A DNA stretch of 64,000 bases from Methanocorpusculum labreanum Z. GTDB taxonomy: Archaea; Halobacteriota; Methanomicrobia; Methanomicrobiales; Methanocorpusculaceae. Positions 3,944 to 48,428 of the stretch are shown piece by piece. The notes under the pieces were generated by a model, which was not told where the DNA came from, ran no database searches, and saw only the letters and a program-made list of their open reading frames with translations. How positions within the stretch are numbered: the first letter of the stretch is position 1; every line of letters begins with the position of its first letter. The position numbers were made by a program, and so were the translations under genes. The stretch is taken from the NCBI RefSeq assembly GCF_000015765.1, contig NC_008942.1, positions 1,193,921 to 1,257,920 on the forward strand. Reading direction: 5' to 3'.

Positions 3944-3975
3944 TTTTTTTTATAATTTTTTTCGTACTTTTTTTG
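3944..3975 (+). terminator. Oligo-T terminator after pan
   Basis: Directly after the pan stop are three runs of seven to eight T residues separated by a few bases. This is the usual archaeal intrinsic termination signal. No hairpin is needed or visible here. Confidence 0.6.
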
Positions 3976-4041
3976 GTGGGTGCATCTTCGCACGTCATTG
4001 ACTTGATCGGCTGAAGCCACCCACTGCGGGGCAAGCCCGCC

Positions 4042-4491
4042 CATCACACGAAATGCACGAAAAACACACAAAAACACGAAAAAGAAAAAGACGAGAGATG
4101 TGGGCATGCATATCATTCCCCCCTGCCATCCACACGAAACTGTCGAAAATCAACGAAATTCACGAAAAGGGGGGCCGCGGTGAAGGGCAGATCAGTGGTA
4201 TATCTTTTGACCTGCGTGCACGGTTGATATTTATTCGTATGGACCTGAAAATAAAAGTGTAATAACACGAAGAAAGTTAGTTGCCGTTTACATCCGTCCC
4301 TATCCCCCTTTTCGTGAATTTCGTTGATTTTCGAAAGTTTCGTGTGGGGGATAGGTTGGCTGCGAAGCTGACAACCTCAGTCGAGCAAGTCGATAGACTG
4401 GGGAGGAGACTGGGGAGGGGGTCACATGTATCTCGCCTCCCGGATTTTTACTTTTCGTGTTTTTGTGTGTTTTTCGTGCATTTCGTGTGAT
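4042..4491. repeat. Family-B inverted-repeat element without cargo gene
   Basis: The gap 3944-4660 is filled by a pair of facing repeats. The left arm (about 4042-4176) is made of CACGAAATGCACGAAAAAC-type units and ends with CACGAAACTG...CACGAAAAGGGG. The right arm (about 4300-4491) carries the inverse, CCCCCTTTTCGTGAATTTCG up to TTTCGTGTGATGAG. The 120 bp between them contain no gene, but the stretch at about 4190-4270 resembles the leader before the GxxExxY gene at 47053 (shared order: GATCTGC-like, TATTTATT-like, GATAAAATAACA-like words). This looks like a B cassette that lost its gene. A family-C hairpin segment (GGTTGGCTGCGAAGC...) is embedded in the right arm. The remaining 170 bases before the next gene show only its presumed promoter. 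Confidence 0.8.
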
Positions 4492-4660
4492 GAGTAGTAC
4501 CACTCAATAAATCCATTACAAGAAACCTGGAAAAAGGAACAAGAATCATTCGCAACCACCCGCAAACATTTTCCATATTTTTTCACCGCAGGGCGTCACT
4601 TTAAAAGGGGTCAGCACTATCACGGCAGGCTTATTACATCGCCAAAGCAAACACAAATTA

Positions 4661-26841: not shown

Positions 26842-26844
26842 AAT

Positions 26845-27055
26845 GGGAGTTACGCGGTGTGATCTCAATCCAATTCGGGAAGTGTATGGTTGGGTGCGGC
26901 TTTATGAGAAAAACCAACCGCGAATCTCCACGAATCCTCGCGAATCGCATTTTTCTTGCGCCTGCGTGCTCTGCTCCGGCTTATCGCCTGCGCAGGAGTC
27001 GCACGCCGCCTGGAAAAATGCTGTAGGAAAAACCGGCTTGCCGGTTTTTCTTTGG
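26845..27055. repeat. Family-A repeat, left arm of a GxxExxY cassette
   Basis: It reads from an outer end (GTTACGCGGTGTGATCTCAA) through AACCAACCGCGAATC and the CTCCGGCTTATCGCCTGCGC segment to an inner hairpin, AAAAACCGGCTTGCCGGTTTTT-like (27031-27051). The matching arm in reverse orientation stands behind the gene, at about 27535-27690. Confidence 0.85.
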
Positions 27056-27093
27056 GGAAAATCATATATTTTTGAACGAAAATAAAAAGAATC

Positions 27094-27531
27094 ATGGATC
27101 ATATTGTGGAAAACCCCGAGATTATCTATCCAGATGAAGTGCATAAAATAATCGGCTGTGCCATGACCATCTATAATACTCTGGGACGCGGGTTTCTGGA
27201 AGCTGTTTATCATGATGCTCTGGAAGTTGAACTGGAATTGCAGGGAATTCCTTTTGAACACAAAAAACATCTGAATATTTTCTACAAAGGCGTGAAACTG
27301 CCGAGTTATTATCAGGCAGACGTGGTCTGTTACAATAATATCATCCTTGAACTGAAATGTGAGACGGAATTACTCAAAGAGGATGAGGCACAGCTCATCA
27401 ATTATCTGAAAGCTACCGGAATTAGACTTGGAATTCTTATCAATTTTGGAAAAAGGAGAAAACTCGAGTGGAGACGAGTCGTATATTCCGATGAACGATA
27501 TCTGTGTAATGCCAATCTCCCAAGAGAATAA
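27094..27531 (+). CDS. GxxExxY family protein (nuclease-like), copy A
   Basis: The 145-residue protein contains the family motif GFLEAVY (Gly33, Glu36, Tyr39). Further on, QADVVCYNNIILELK has the Asp and Glu-x-Lys spacing of a PD-(D/E)XK nuclease core. GxxExxY proteins (TIGR04256) are widespread, often multi-copy and of unknown function. The gene is AT-rich compared with its neighbours and is flanked within about 40 bases on the left and within a few bases on the right by inverted family-A repeats, as if it were cargo. The 47053 gene is a second member in a different repeat family. Confidence 0.88.
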   Translation: MDHIVENPEIIYPDEVHKIIGCAMTIYNTLGRGFLEAVYHDALEVELELQGIPFEHKKHLNIFYKGVKLPSYYQADVVCYNNIILELKCETELLKEDEAQLINYLKATGIRLGILINFGKRRKLEWRRVVYSDERYLCNANLPRE

Positions 27532-27534
27532 AAG

Positions 27535-27690
27535 AAAAAAGAAAAACCCGCACGCGGGTTTTTCCCTAGCATTTTTCCAGACGGCGTGCGATTCCTGCGG
27601 AGGCGATCAGCCGGAGCAGAGCACGCAGGCGCAAGAAAAATGCGATTCGCGAGGATTCGCGGAGATTCGCGGTTAATTTTCTCATGCGTT
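27535..27690. repeat. Family-A repeat, right arm of a GxxExxY cassette
   Basis: Reverse copy of 26845-27055: an inner hairpin (AAAAACCCGCACGCGGGTTTTT-like, 27542-27563), then GCGATTCCTGCGGAGGCGAT, and GCGAGGATTCGCGGAGATTC at the outer part, ending near CTCATGCGTTCACAGG. It fills the gap up to the next operon. Confidence 0.85.
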
Positions 27691-27725
27691 CACAGGAGAT
27701 ACAGTCCTTTCTAAAAAAAGAAGCC

Positions 27726-30897: not shown

Positions 30898-33800
30898 TTA
30901 AGGAGATCGTATGTTGATCTCTTCGAAACGTTCAATCTGCTCGGTGAAATGCCGGTAGTTTTTAGCATAAAGATACTCAACATCTTTTCCTATTGCTTTA
31001 GATACTGCATCGAAGTGCATTTCTCCACAACTAATCTTAACTCTTTCAACCTCACTGAGATCTTTACGTTCTTTGTCGATTTTTGTCTCAACGATGAAAT
31101 AGAGTCTCGTCAATTCGTCGGAGTGTTTATAGATGACTGCCCAGTCTGGAGAGTAATTTCCTTCAGGTGTGTCGATGACAAACCCACCTTTGTGGAGTTT
31201 GGTGAAGAGGAGGACGCGTTCATCTTCGTCCAACTGCTGAGCAAACTCTTTTTCACCTTTGCTGTCTGTCTTGTAGTATTTGTAGAGTGCATGACGCTTT
31301 TCTGGTTTGGATTTGTATGCATCAAAAGTGAATGCATCATCATCATCTAATTTTTTGAGCGTTTCTGAGTCGATTTTGTCAGGAACGAAGATTTCTTTTT
31401 TGTCGAAGAGGTAGTTATCGATTACCTGATATCCGGATATGTGGGCAGATTTGAATTCGGTGAGAGTTTTTTGTAATTCGAGTGTTGCATTATCTAATAT
31501 ATCCTGAACCCTGAGGTATTCTTTGAGTTCAGGACTCAGTTCATTGAGTATTGCGTATATGGCAAGACGCGGGAGTCTTGTCTGCTGCATGATGTAGTTG
31601 ATTATCTGGAAGTCGGTTTTTTTGTACCAGACCAAGGGTGTTTTGTCGGTTGTGTACTCCTCTTTTTGTTCATTGACGTAGGTTTTTCCGTCTGCTTTCA
31701 TACGGACTTCGCCGGTAGTGGTGGTGATCGACTGGGCGGTTGCCCATTTTGTTGTTAAGAGACGATTGAGTCTTCTTCCCGCTTCCTGAATGAAGTCTGC
31801 AGAGTCAATGTTGATCTGATAGAATGTGCGTTTTTCCAGGCGGAGTGTGAGTTCATTTAGAAGGTTTTTGAAGGATTCTTCACCTATGTAGGAATGAGGG
31901 GAGTTTTCTTCGGATTTTTCATCGCCATTCTCGATATATATCCTCTTTGTGCCCTTTTCGGTCATGACTTGGATGAAAGCATTTTTGATGGCGACTTCAT
32001 GCTCGCTTAACGTGGCGTCAGTGAACGATATGTTGTGTATGTCGATTTTTGGGTTGAGTTTACCCTGCGAGTTGATGACGGCTTTTATCCGAAGCTCTTT
32101 TTCCAAGGTCTTGGCAAGGTCTTTGGTGATTTTTTTCTGTGGTAGTCCGGCTTGTTTCAGGGTCTCGATAAATTCGTAGACTGTAGCTATGTCTTTGTTG
32201 AAGTTTTGTTCTGCGTCGAAATCTGCCTGGAGATGGGCTGCAAATTCGTCGTAATAGGAGTTTGCAACGACCGTCAGCATGTTTACATCTTCATCATAGC
32301 AGCGTTCCCCGTGTATGTCTACAGGAAGACGGAGTCCTCTGCCGATCTCCTGTTTTTTTGCCATTTCATTTGAAGATTCCTTGAGGGTGCAGAGGGTGAA
32401 GACGTTTGGGTTGTCCCACCCCTCTCTTAGCGCGGAGTGGGAGAAGATGAAGGCCAGGGGTGTTTGAAATGATATGAGTTCCTCTTTTTTCTTGAGGATC
32501 AGTTCAATACCCCGTTCGATGTCTTCCTTGGATTTTTTATTGTAGTCGTCTTCTTCGAGCATGCTGAGTCTGTTCTTTTTGGAGCTTTCAGGCTCGACGA
32601 CTTTGTTGTTTTTATCTATGGCGAAGTAGCCTTCTCTGATGTTGAGGACGTTTTTGTATTCCGGGAATAGAGCTTCGTATTTTTTGAAGTAGTCCTGGTA
32701 TTTTTTTTCGTGGATGATGGTGTTGTATTCTTCGTCAAAGATCCGAAGGAAGATTCCGCGGCCGTCAGCTTGCGTATCGTCACGGATGCGTTTAACTTCG
32801 TCAATAAAGAAGAGGGAGATAGCTTTGATGTGTTTTTTGTTCTCGAGGAGGTTAAACTGGGTGTCGAGATGATTTTTTATTGCAGTTCTGATCTGGACCC
32901 TGACAACAGTTGAATCGGCTTCTCGGAGTTTTTCATTATATGTACAATCTCCGGGCATAAGTGTGAGGCTGTCATCACCCTGATTGATGGTGATTCCCCA
33001 GTTGGATGATCCGGTGGTTTCATTGAAGAGGGTGAGCTGACCAAGTTTCCCGCGTGAGATGGTGAGTCCATCGAGTTTGTGGGGGTTTCCGGCAATGAAC
33101 ATGTTTTGATACTGTTCGAGGCCACCGGAGAGTTCGTGAAGCGAGTCACCATCGCTTACGTCGTATTGTTTTTTGCTTATACCGCGTTTTTCATCACGGG
33201 AGAATATTTCGATCCTTGCCTTGAGGTTTGTTGTAAAAGTTACATATCTGATGTAGGGGAAATCAGTTGGGACTTCACCGTATACGGTTTTTACCCGGAT
33301 CTTTTTGACGAGGTTCTGGTTGTATGCATCATAGCTTGTCAGGCGGTAGACACAGTTATAGGGATTTTTGTGGGTCGCGGAGTAGCGTAAAGTGAAGAGG
33401 GGTGCAAGATTTTCGAGTTCGCGAAGGGATGAACTCTTTTTGGAGGTGGTCCCTTCGATAAGTTGCGGTTCGTCGATTATGATGATTGGTTTTACCGCTT
33501 TGATTAAGTCCCAAAGTTTTGTCCCGCCTTCACGGTCTTTCTGAATGATATTGATGCCGCTTTTGTTGAAGGCATCTTTGTTCATTATGACGATGGAAAG
33601 GTCTGTTCCTTCGATGAATTTGCTTCTGAGTTCGTCGATTTTTGATGATGTGTAGATGAAGGATCGGGCGTTTATGTCGATTCCGTCGTAGAGTGCTTTG
33701 AAGGTTTCTGTGAGTTGTTCGATGCTTTTTTTGACGCCCTGAAGGATGGCGATTCTGGGGACGACGATGATGAATTTGGTAAATCCATATTGTTTATGGA

Positions 33801-34128
33801 GTTCGAGGATGGTCCTGAGGTAGACGTAGGTTTTTCCGGTTCCAGTTTCCATGTCGACGGAGAAGTTGTAGTTGAAGAGTTCGTCGTCGGGGAGGAGGTG
33901 GTCGTTTTGGGTCTGGATGGATTTGAGGTTGTTGAGGAGTCGAGTGTCGCCTATCTCGAGTCTGGGATTTCGTCCGAGGCGTGTTTCGATGAGTTCAGCA
34001 CGTCCGGGTGTTTTGTAGAGGGATTCGCCGGTGGTTTTGTTTTGTCCCGAAAAGAGGTCGACGACGGAATTGACGGCGTCTATCTGATAGGGGAGGTCGA
34101 CGAATTTGAAGGTGATTTTGCCGGTCAT
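30898..34128 (-). CDS. res: Type III restriction enzyme, helicase-nuclease subunit (Res)
   Basis: This is the 1076-residue translocating subunit of a type III restriction system. Walker A is METGTGKT (Lys99), the helicase box is IIIIDEPQ (about 215), and motif VI is QEIGRGLRLPVD (about 590). A C-terminal PD-(D/E)XK nuclease is intact: SPDWAVIYK (Asp995) then FIVETK (Glu1014, Lys1016). The usual length is about 970-1000, so this is a slightly long member. It begins seven bases after the end of mod. In these systems Res cuts DNA when two head-to-head unmethylated sites are met. AT-rich. Confidence 0.96.
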   Translation of the reverse strand: MTGKITFKFVDLPYQIDAVNSVVDLFSGQNKTTGESLYKTPGRAELIETRLGRNPRLEIGDTRLLNNLKSIQTQNDHLLPDDELFNYNFSVDMETGTGKTYVYLRTILELHKQYGFTKFIIVVPRIAILQGVKKSIEQLTETFKALYDGIDINARSFIYTSSKIDELRSKFIEGTDLSIVIMNKDAFNKSGINIIQKDREGGTKLWDLIKAVKPIIIIDEPQLIEGTTSKKSSSLRELENLAPLFTLRYSATHKNPYNCVYRLTSYDAYNQNLVKKIRVKTVYGEVPTDFPYIRYVTFTTNLKARIEIFSRDEKRGISKKQYDVSDGDSLHELSGGLEQYQNMFIAGNPHKLDGLTISRGKLGQLTLFNETTGSSNWGITINQGDDSLTLMPGDCTYNEKLREADSTVVRVQIRTAIKNHLDTQFNLLENKKHIKAISLFFIDEVKRIRDDTQADGRGIFLRIFDEEYNTIIHEKKYQDYFKKYEALFPEYKNVLNIREGYFAIDKNNKVVEPESSKKNRLSMLEEDDYNKKSKEDIERGIELILKKKEELISFQTPLAFIFSHSALREGWDNPNVFTLCTLKESSNEMAKKQEIGRGLRLPVDIHGERCYDEDVNMLTVVANSYYDEFAAHLQADFDAEQNFNKDIATVYEFIETLKQAGLPQKKITKDLAKTLEKELRIKAVINSQGKLNPKIDIHNISFTDATLSEHEVAIKNAFIQVMTEKGTKRIYIENGDEKSEENSPHSYIGEESFKNLLNELTLRLEKRTFYQINIDSADFIQEAGRRLNRLLTTKWATAQSITTTTGEVRMKADGKTYVNEQKEEYTTDKTPLVWYKKTDFQIINYIMQQTRLPRLAIYAILNELSPELKEYLRVQDILDNATLELQKTLTEFKSAHISGYQVIDNYLFDKKEIFVPDKIDSETLKKLDDDDAFTFDAYKSKPEKRHALYKYYKTDSKGEKEFAQQLDEDERVLLFTKLHKGGFVIDTPEGNYSPDWAVIYKHSDELTRLYFIVETKIDKERKDLSEVERVKISCGEMHFDAVSKAIGKDVEYLYAKNYRHFTEQIERFEEINIRSP

Positions 34129-46758: not shown

Positions 46759-46792
46759 TGGGCGTTCTTTTTCTGCTCTTTTTTTATTTTAT

Positions 46793-46978
46793 TTTGGTTT
46801 CGTGTACGGGATTCTTTCGGGTGGTACAATTCATCACACGAAATCCACGAAAAATACACAAAAACACGAAAAAAGAAATATTTGTTGGGTGGACCCCTGA
46901 AGCATCCTCCCCAGTCCCCCACACGAAATTTTCGAAAATCAACGAAATGCACGAAAAGGGGGACAGGGGCGGGGGATT
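46793..46978. repeat. Family-B repeat, left arm of a GxxExxY cassette
   Basis: Outer end CGTGTACGGGATTCTTTCGG, followed by CACACGAAATCCACGAAAAA, ACACAAAAACACGAAAAAAG and, at the inner end, CGAAAATCAACGAAATGCAC then GAAAAGGGGGAC. Inverted partner at 47515-47702. The gap 46682-47052 consists of this arm, a C block and an AT-rich leader before the next gene. Confidence 0.85.
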
Positions 46979-47052
46979 GAAATGTTAGGTAATATATTGA
47001 TCTGCATTAACTGGGTGATTTTTATTAGGATGGGATGATAAAATAACAGATA

Positions 47053-47475
47053 ATGCTCTATTATAAAGACGAATCCTATGCAATCTTCGGTGCTATTTTT
47101 GAAGTGTACAAAACTCTTGGAAACACCTTCATCGAATCATTTTATCAGAAAGCTTTGGAGCATGAATTTAAACTAAGAAAGATTCCCTTTGTCCCGCAGA
47201 AACGTATCCCGGCAGTGTACAAAGGTCAGGAGATCGGATATTATACCCCGGATTTTGTCTGTTTTGACAAAATTATTGTTGAGCTGAAATCGCGGCAAAA
47301 CACCACAGAAGAAGAACAGAAACAGGTGATGAACTATCTAAATCTTGGGGGATATGATCTAGGGATCTTAGTGAATTTTGGCACATATCCCAAGGTGTAC
47401 GTGCAAAGGATCGTCCGAAAGGGAGCGGCACTTCCAACAGTCGAAGAAGAAGAACCGCCGTATTATTTTGAGTGA
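47053..47475 (+). CDS. GxxExxY family protein (nuclease-like), copy B
   Basis: The 140-residue protein has TFIESFYQKALEHEF, where Glu28 and Tyr31 fit the ExxY part of the family motif and Thr25 replaces the usual Gly. YTPDFVCFDKIIVELKSRQN carries the Asp and Glu-Leu-Lys of a PD-(D/E)XK-like core. It is clearly diverged from the 27094 protein yet has the same build and ends. It is flanked by inverted family-B repeats (46793-46978 and 47515-47702), while the 27094 gene is flanked by family A. The function is unknown. AT-rich relative to core genes. Confidence 0.87.
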   Translation: MLYYKDESYAIFGAIFEVYKTLGNTFIESFYQKALEHEFKLRKIPFVPQKRIPAVYKGQEIGYYTPDFVCFDKIIVELKSRQNTTEEEQKQVMNYLNLGGYDLGILVNFGTYPKVYVQRIVRKGAALPTVEEEEPPYYFE

Positions 47476-47514
47476 AATTACCTCCAATACACTCACCTCT
47501 ATTTTGACAAGAGA

Positions 47515-47702
47515 AGATTTCTTTTCCTCCGCCCCTGCCCCCCTTTTCGTGCATTTCGTTGATGTTCGAAAGTTTCGTGTGGGGGCTGGGGAGGGATCTA
47601 TGTACATCTCCACCCGACCGATTTTATTATTTTCGTGTTTTCGTGTGTTTTTCGTGAATTTCGTGTGAGGAGGGGTACCTCTCAAAGATTCCCATACGTG
47701 AA
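47515..47702. repeat. Family-B repeat, right arm of a GxxExxY cassette
   Basis: Reads CCCCCTTTTCGTGCATTTCG, GTTGATGTTCGAAAGTTTCG, GTGTGGGGGCTGG, then TTTTCGTGTTTTCGTGTGTT and TTTCGTGAATTTCGTGTGAG and ends CCCATACGTG, which is the outer end. It is the reverse partner of 46793-46978. The remaining 180 bases before the lipoprotein gene are AT-rich with no visible gene. Confidence 0.85.
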
Positions 47703-47883
47703 AACAGCCGAGACCAAAGGCAAATCACCCCATCTAATGAAAAAGAGTGAGAATCATTTCACTAATAATGACCCAGTATATCTAGGTAAGGAGATCCATT
47801 TTTAGTAATAATTCTGATAATACCAGCGGATTGTAAACTATTTCCCAGAAATATTTATGGAAGAACAATGTCCATTATATTTT

Positions 47884-48213
47884 ATGAATAAAAGTGTGTG
47901 TTTTATTATGATATTACTGCTATTCGCAGTAGCTTTTACTGCGGGTTGTGTTTCTACAGCATCTGACGAAGCAACTTCCACTCCCGTTTCAACTCTAACA
48001 AATACTCCAACGTCAGTCCAAACACAAACATCTACGCCTGTTGTTACCAGTACACCGACGCCTACTAAAACCGCGACATCGACAATTCTTTATTACGTGA
48101 ACAAGGACTCAGGGATAGTGCATAAAGCCGGCTGTTCGTATATCAAGGATCTTTCCAATTACTTTACTGTGACAGACCCATCAGGCTACCAAAAATGCAG
48201 CAGGTGCTGGTAA
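47884..48213 (+). CDS. Thr-rich lipoprotein of unknown function
   Basis: The 109-residue protein begins MNKSVCFIMILLLFAVAFTA and continues with Gly-Cys: a lipoprotein signal with Cys at about residue 22. A long linker of Thr, Pro, Ser and Val repeats (TPVSTLTNTPTSVQ and so on) then leads to a small C-terminal domain with VHKAGCSYIKDLSNYF and a last CSRCW. The C-terminal Cys/His pattern resembles the small metal-binding or disulfide domains sometimes found behind such linkers. A Met nine codons earlier is unlikely, since it would disrupt the signal. Surface-attached, function unknown, AT-rich. Confidence 0.75.
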   Translation: MNKSVCFIMILLLFAVAFTAGCVSTASDEATSTPVSTLTNTPTSVQTQTSTPVVTSTPTPTKTATSTILYYVNKDSGIVHKAGCSYIKDLSNYFTVTDPSGYQKCSRCW

Positions 48214-48264
48214 ATTTTTTCATCAATTTTAACAAACCCTTTTCTTAAATCCAAAAAAGAATAT

Positions 48265-48428
48265 TCTTACATCCCCCTTTTCGTGAATTTCGTTGAATTT
48301 CGGAAATTTCGTGTGGGGGATGGAGACAATCCAACCTGTTTGTTCTCATTTTCGTGTTTTCGTGTGTTTTTCGTGCATTTCGTGTGATGAGTAGTACCAC
48401 CAAAAGAATCCCATACACGAAATCGAAA
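48265..48428. repeat. Family-B repeat, right-type arm
   Basis: CCCCCTTTTCGTGAATTTCG, then GTTGAATTTCGGAAATTTCG, GTGTGGGGGATGG, TTTTCGTGTTTTCGTGTGTT and CATTTCGTGTGATGAGTAGT. Same orientation as 47515; no left arm faces it. It fills the gap 48214-48467 before hypD. Confidence 0.8.

Follow-up and report, generated by a model that had tools for sequence, protein, structure and literature searches.

The 64,000-nucleotide stretch of the Methanocorpusculum labreanum Z genome analysed here (the window; contig NC_008942.1, positions 1,193,921 to 1,257,920) raises the question of why a single small gene of the GxxExxY family, for which we know of no established function, should stand between two inverted copies of a repeat, and whether the gene is carried by the repeats or acts upon them. 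The reading we favour, with a probability of roughly 0.6, is that the unit is a distinct mobile element in which a PD-(D/E)XK nuclease gene lies between two inverted ends that its product would process. The features of this focal unit and of two further units are listed below in window coordinates.

26843..26903 (+): outer end, TIR-like ATGGGAGTTACGCGGTGT at 26843-26860 and the spacer behind it; on the left side of the focal unit only
26904..27053 (+): left inverted arm, 150 bp, 90.7% against the right arm
26918..26945 (+): left triple unit CCGCGAATCTCCACGAATCCTCGCGAAT, CRCNRAK in three copies spaced at 10-bp intervals; from a pattern search of the genome
26947..27021 (+): left-arm putative hairpin I, GCATTTTTC...GAAAAATGC; of 47 arms, 26 have C-G and 21 have G-C at an inner pair
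27026..27051 (+): left-arm putative hairpin II, AAAAACCGGC..GCCGGTTTTT; terminator-like on both strands
27094..27531 (+): GxxExxY gene, 145 aa, predicted PD-(D/E)XK nuclease (TIGR04256, PF13366, fold model)
27538..27685 (-): right inverted arm, paired with the left arm in the arm alignment
27540..27565 (-): right-arm putative hairpin II (sequence and covariation over 47 arms)
27569..27643 (-): right-arm putative hairpin I (sequence and covariation over 47 arms)
27645..27672 (-): right triple unit CCGCGAATCTCCGCGAATCCTCGCGAAT, from the pattern search; contig 1221565-1221592
764..1260 (no strand): gene-less element of the focal repeat family (family A), two inverted arms, outer ends ATAGGACTTATGC...GCGTAAGTCCTAT; absent in the sister species G014
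46792..48428 (no strand): second GxxExxY unit of the window, gene 47053-47475 (+), arms of the CACGAAA type; flank score 169

The original prediction of a GxxExxY gene between inverted arms was borne out, as the 145-aa ORF matches TIGR04256 and the arms are about 91% alike. The gapped alignment pairs 26904-27053 with 27538-27685 (150 bp, 90.7%), and the ungapped match covers 126 nt at 90% (26910-27035 against 27555-27680) plus 28 nt at 89%. The left arm had been placed at 26845-27055, which holds from 26904 onwards; nothing in the right arm corresponds to the 60 bp at 26845-26904. This outer end of about 60 bp also adjoins many gene-less copies elsewhere in the genome. Between gene and arms, where 40 and a few bases had been given, the left gap measures 40 bp and the right one 6 bp. 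When the inverted flank score was compared over the 52 window ORFs of at least 100 aa, only the focal gene (222) and the second GxxExxY gene (169) were found to have inverted arms, while the other 50 ORFs scored 26 or less; the focal arms are therefore not a product of chance. Around the focal unit lie an archaeal RNase P RNA gene (Rfam RF00373; 25448-25758, reverse strand) at about 1.1 kb and, about 3 kb away, a 1076-aa ORF (30898-34128, reverse strand) that by eye is like a Type III restriction enzyme.

The genome, a single contig of 1,804,962 bp, has five GxxExxY genes, and as anticipated all five have inverted flanks (150 bp/91%, 215/95%, 137/89%, 278/73% and 187/80%). The 187-bp pair belongs to a separate repeat family with CACGAAA units that is present at 34 places. 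In the second unit of the window (46792-48428) a third arm encloses a further ORF of 118 aa, lipoprotein-like. A genome-wide search with the focal left arm gave 65 matches, and the triple CGCGAAT pattern occurs at 61 places against 0 for the reversed control. Taking 60 of these 61 places, neighbouring arms within 6 kb are inward-facing in 21 cases, outward-facing in 5 and in the same direction in none. Inward arms spaced about 285 bp apart make up gene-less units and those spaced 725-832 bp apart the GxxExxY units, but other genes also lie between the same arms: a YdjM (PF04307) gene at a spacing of 1274 bp, a DUF4062 (PF13271) gene at 2597 bp and a PD-Lambda-4_A gene (E 1.7e-78) at 4819 bp. 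An outer end, ATAGGACTTACGCGGTGT, lies 36-110 bp beyond the arms of many gene-less units and is also present on the DUF4062 unit, whereas most gene-bearing units are without it. Since this end is mostly missing from gene-bearing units, another enzyme may move the gene-less copies that have it. It may also be noted that short hairpin repeats of the GCAAATCGAAGATTTGC type, a nested repeat family, lie within several family-A arms (e.g. L064:1400-1460).

Comparison of orthologous sites in sister species, by which the original prediction could be judged further, showed the unit to be absent both at the focal site (in G012) and at the site of a second gene unit. This second unit (841492-842397, with a GxxExxY gene) is absent, with intact flanks, in all four sister species read (G016, G003, G012, G014). 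At the focal site, the flank homology with G012 ends at 26843 and restarts at 27713, and G012 has another insert here, in which an ORF of 434 aa is Fic-like by eye and a GxxExxY gene is missing. The DUF4062 unit is absent in G016, G003, G012 and G020, the gene-less unit at 764-1260 is absent in G014, and the site 3946-4611 is occupied by different elements in different species. In three paralogous units whose proteins are 90% identical, the likeness is confined to within the arms. The precise empty sites and the homology ending at the arms require insertion or excision of the whole unit: the focal unit is mobile. Together with the arms at all five GxxExxY genes, the empty orthologous sites uphold the description of a repeat-bounded single-gene unit. 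No target-site duplication could be fixed at the junctions, where the flanks are A/T-rich and diverged. G016 shows a rearrangement of the sequences next to the focal site, with a GxxExxY gene (L214, C1:1530500-1534200; 65% identity) in their midst; it may stem from an inversion between inverted units.

The focal protein scores above the curated thresholds, with 139.2 bits on TIGR04256 (GxxExxY; cut-off 35) and 143.4 bits on PF13366 (PDDEXK_3; cut-off 22). Invariant in 17 of 17 sequences are E36, Y39, D76, E86, K88, Q100 and Y104, and the Q and Y are nearly invariant among 48 relatives. The layout (D76, E86-x-K88, Q100-xxx-Y104) is that of the RecB/Cas4-like PD-(D/E)XK nucleases, in which the D, ExK and QxxxY have catalytic motif roles. 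A sequence search for a solved relative gave none that was credible (best E 0.22). The structure model (pLDDT 90.1) has as its best Foldseek match 4ic1/SSO0001, which we take to be a Cas4, with a moderate E of 1.9e-4 (structural alignment by VIA-align: Z 9.0 over 104 residues, rmsd 5.2), and lambda exonuclease is also among the best fold matches. On the model and these residues, the protein looks like an intact PD-(D/E)XK nuclease of the RecB/Cas4/lambda-exonuclease kind with the catalytic residues in place. Cas4 proper has four conserved cysteines. It was ruled out here, as no cysteine is invariant or nearly invariant among the 17 or the 48 relatives; unlike Cas4, the 145-aa GxxExxY protein consists of the nuclease core only and lacks the conserved cysteines that an iron-sulphur cluster would need. 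PADLOC assigned the focal protein to no anti-phage family.

Beyond this genome, 80 named GxxExxY loci from many phyla formed a discovery set, of which 77 had usable flanks. In 43 of the 77 the inverted flank repeat exceeded the 99th percentile of mismatched flank pairs; the direct orientation also did so in 26, and four loci (L127, L144, L157, L165) have very high direct-repeat scores between the flanks (355-458). A motif-free search for three tandem units of about 10 bp found them upstream in 40, downstream in 40 and on both sides in 27 of the 77, as compared with 12 upstream, 17 downstream and 2 on both sides for 125 further ORFs from these loci, and 0.26% per side in shuffled flanks. As the consensus CRCNRAK had been derived from these discovery data themselves, it was tested on fresh loci (30 fetched and 1 dropped; one locus, G199 C247, is shared with the discovery set). 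Triples of CRCNRAK were present on both flanks of 15 of the 29 fresh GxxExxY genes, in 3 of 222 control windows and in none of 27 genes of the multicopy family TIGR02436 (30 fetched, 3 dropped). This four-helix-bundle/IVS family is thereby ruled out as a second user of such ends. Among the small genes tested, the arms are shown to be confined to GxxExxY. GxxExxY genes without inverted flanks had been named as the finding that would speak against the original prediction; there are none in the M. labreanum genome, but arms on both sides were undetected at about half of the bacterial GxxExxY genes, so that the arms are a strong rule and not a universal one.

The units differ from locus to locus and follow the protein. 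Within a locus the left unit matches the right one at 6.77 of 7 positions, and units of different loci match at 4.63 (30 of 113 loci); the more alike two proteins are, the more alike their units tend to be (Mantel r 0.33, N 65, p 0.0005; in bacteria alone r 0.37, N 48, p 0.0005), host kinship being included in both values. Six genomes of the genus with related GxxExxY genes or gene fragments have 60, 29, 25, 18, 18 and 13 CGCGAAT triples, and the other 19 of the 25 have 5 or fewer. In one genome (G017) a GxxExxY gene of 63% identity goes with no CGCGAAT triples and, by eye, with CACAGAT-like flank units. Likewise, five genomes with a CGCCAAG-flanked locus have 16, 7, 27, 9 and 23 CGCCAAG triples, against 10, 3, 1 and seven times 0 in ten other genomes. 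On these sequence comparisons the repeat unit is locus-specific and tracks protein relatedness.

This bears on the term cargo that was originally given to the gene. The term is doubtful, because this gene is what many units across phyla have in common, its nuclease looks intact and the repeat covaries with the protein; it fits better the other genes that stand between such arms elsewhere and the restriction systems enclosed by GxxExxY pairs. The role of the gene may thus have been misjudged, and from these sequence patterns GxxExxY is more likely to be an enzyme working on the ends than cargo.

Each end of the focal family has, besides its three DNA units of about 10 bp (focal CGCGAAT), two hairpins, and the inner ones were found facing the gene from both sides at 27026-27051 and 27540-27565 as described earlier. 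The inner hairpins of the arms look real in sequence, since their pairing is kept through double changes: the inner pair of hairpin I noted above is broken in none of the 47 arms, and one pair of hairpin II is C-G in 27, G-C in 20 and likewise never broken. Such double changes affect 5 of the 29 hairpin pairs, although they represent few events because the arm copies are related. The inner hairpins would probably also stop incoming transcription from outside. The kept pairing and the resemblance of hairpin II to a two-way terminator could mean that the flanks work as RNA, either as hairpin terminators or as an IVS-like excised stem, and that GxxExxY acts on transcripts. We consider this very unlikely. 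The three units with their period of about 10 bp are conserved better between arms than the spacers (472 of 504 against 75 of 108 positions matching), which indicates a readout of DNA. Moreover, an Rfam search of the flanks gave no RNA family at the gathering score, the fold relatives are DNA nucleases, and TIGR02436, which is RNA-associated, was without the motif.

Full-length GxxExxY genes no more than 10 kb apart form 17 pairs in the genus; judged by eye, 16 of these face inward, and 13 of the 16 were read. Restriction or defence genes are enclosed by 11 of these 13, the exceptions being L298 and L306. The pairs contain Type I systems (L300, with Abi_alpha, and L301), an HSDR_N protein (L295), GmrSD (L299), DpnI (L296, and by nucleotide identity L297 and L302), MmeI (L303, L304, L307) and a Type II pair (L305). 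The DpnI cassette stands at different places in the three species and its outer flanks differ. The two GxxExxY copies are of different subtypes in 11 of the 13 pairs (permutation p 0.02). No triple units were found in the outer 700 bp of the 13 inward pairs, and their ends therefore differ, making this a related but different architecture. Two inverted GxxExxY genes bracketing cargo recall a composite transposon, except that the flanking gene is a nuclease and not a known transposase and that the copies mostly differ in subtype.

The main rival to end processing is that GxxExxY is a passenger, perhaps a defence nuclease, in MITE-like units that another enzyme moves through ATAGGACTTACGCGGTGT. 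The YdjM, DUF4062 and PD-Lambda-4 genes between the same arms without GxxExxY, the outer ends that the DUF4062 unit shares with many gene-less copies, and the mostly restriction-modification cargo in relatives are all in line with it. Yet the outer ends are missing from most gene-bearing units, the annotation summary in Table 1 of PMC2686161 gives 0 transposable elements for M. labreanum Z, and triple units at GxxExxY genes in many phyla follow the protein, a covariation with the ends that is unexpected of a passenger. We therefore regard the passenger role as unlikely, though it deserves serious weight. The units resemble MITEs and mobile insertion cassettes (mics) in the terminal inverted ends, the want of a recognised transposase and the passenger gene in some copies (PMC3913671), and also in the presence or absence at orthologous sites. 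Mics borrow the ends of a known IS (PMC3913671), whereas no IS sharing the outer ends was found within the 178 kb of genome read, and none is listed in the published annotation (PMC2686161).

The nuclease fold and the frequency of restriction genes alongside in the genus would also suit a solitary restriction-like or self-protecting selfish gene, with the repeats as self-marks spread by recombination only; but precise empty sites and homology ending at the arms demand insertion or excision, which goes beyond cutting, and leave this reading highly improbable. A genome so rich in the family-A repeat could even place unrelated repeats on either side of an ordinary gene, an explanation refuted to the point of hardly any remaining probability by the five of five genes in two repeat families, the motif in other phyla and the arm orientations within 6 kb. 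A cognate pair of gene and repeat could also arise from a nuclease that merely binds or regulates the repeats.

End processing by GxxExxY has its nearest described parallel in REPtrons, where one gene is flanked by inverted cognate repeats, the repeats are dispersed as gene-less copies, and repeat and protein co-evolve (PMC8266576). The focal gene likewise stands between inverted cognate repeats with copies scattered over the genome. However, TnpAREP (RAYT) is an HUH enzyme related to the IS200/IS605 transposases (PMC8266576), while GxxExxY is PD-(D/E)XK by Pfam and fold; its mark, unlike that of the REPtrons, is a triple tandem unit of about 10 bp, and other genes occur between the arms. REPtron membership is ruled out, the HUH tyrosine transposase being absent. 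In the open-licence PMC text, a scope that leaves preprints outside, no description of a pairing between GxxExxY and repeats was found, and the family accessions and short repeat strings returned only unrelated papers.

By analogy, the processing of the unit ends by GxxExxY is the most likely course. The protein would recognise the triple units at the ends of its own element and cut there, which would let the unit be excised, copied or exchanged, with host replication or recombination completing the reaction. Gene-less and cargo-bearing copies would be moved in trans, and head-to-head GxxExxY genes would bracket longer cargo, mostly restriction-modification systems. That GxxExxY proteins at large are the enzymes of a widespread, undescribed mobile class with locus-specific triple CRCNRAK ends, which also shuttles defence genes, is a more tentative proposal, to which we give a little less than an even chance. 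If it is true, GxxExxY moves its own one-gene unit and the gene-less copies, pairs or bare arms shuttle restriction-modification and defence genes, and scattered triple intergenic repeats of about 10 bp are GxxExxY substrates. The pairing of gene and repeat gives a family without a function a testable job, and a possible origin is offered for the triple intergenic repeats in the genomes examined. It also reveals defence cassettes in a genome annotated without transposable elements, and the matching ends at many bacterial relatives suggest a little-known type of mobile DNA that is able to carry virus-defence genes.
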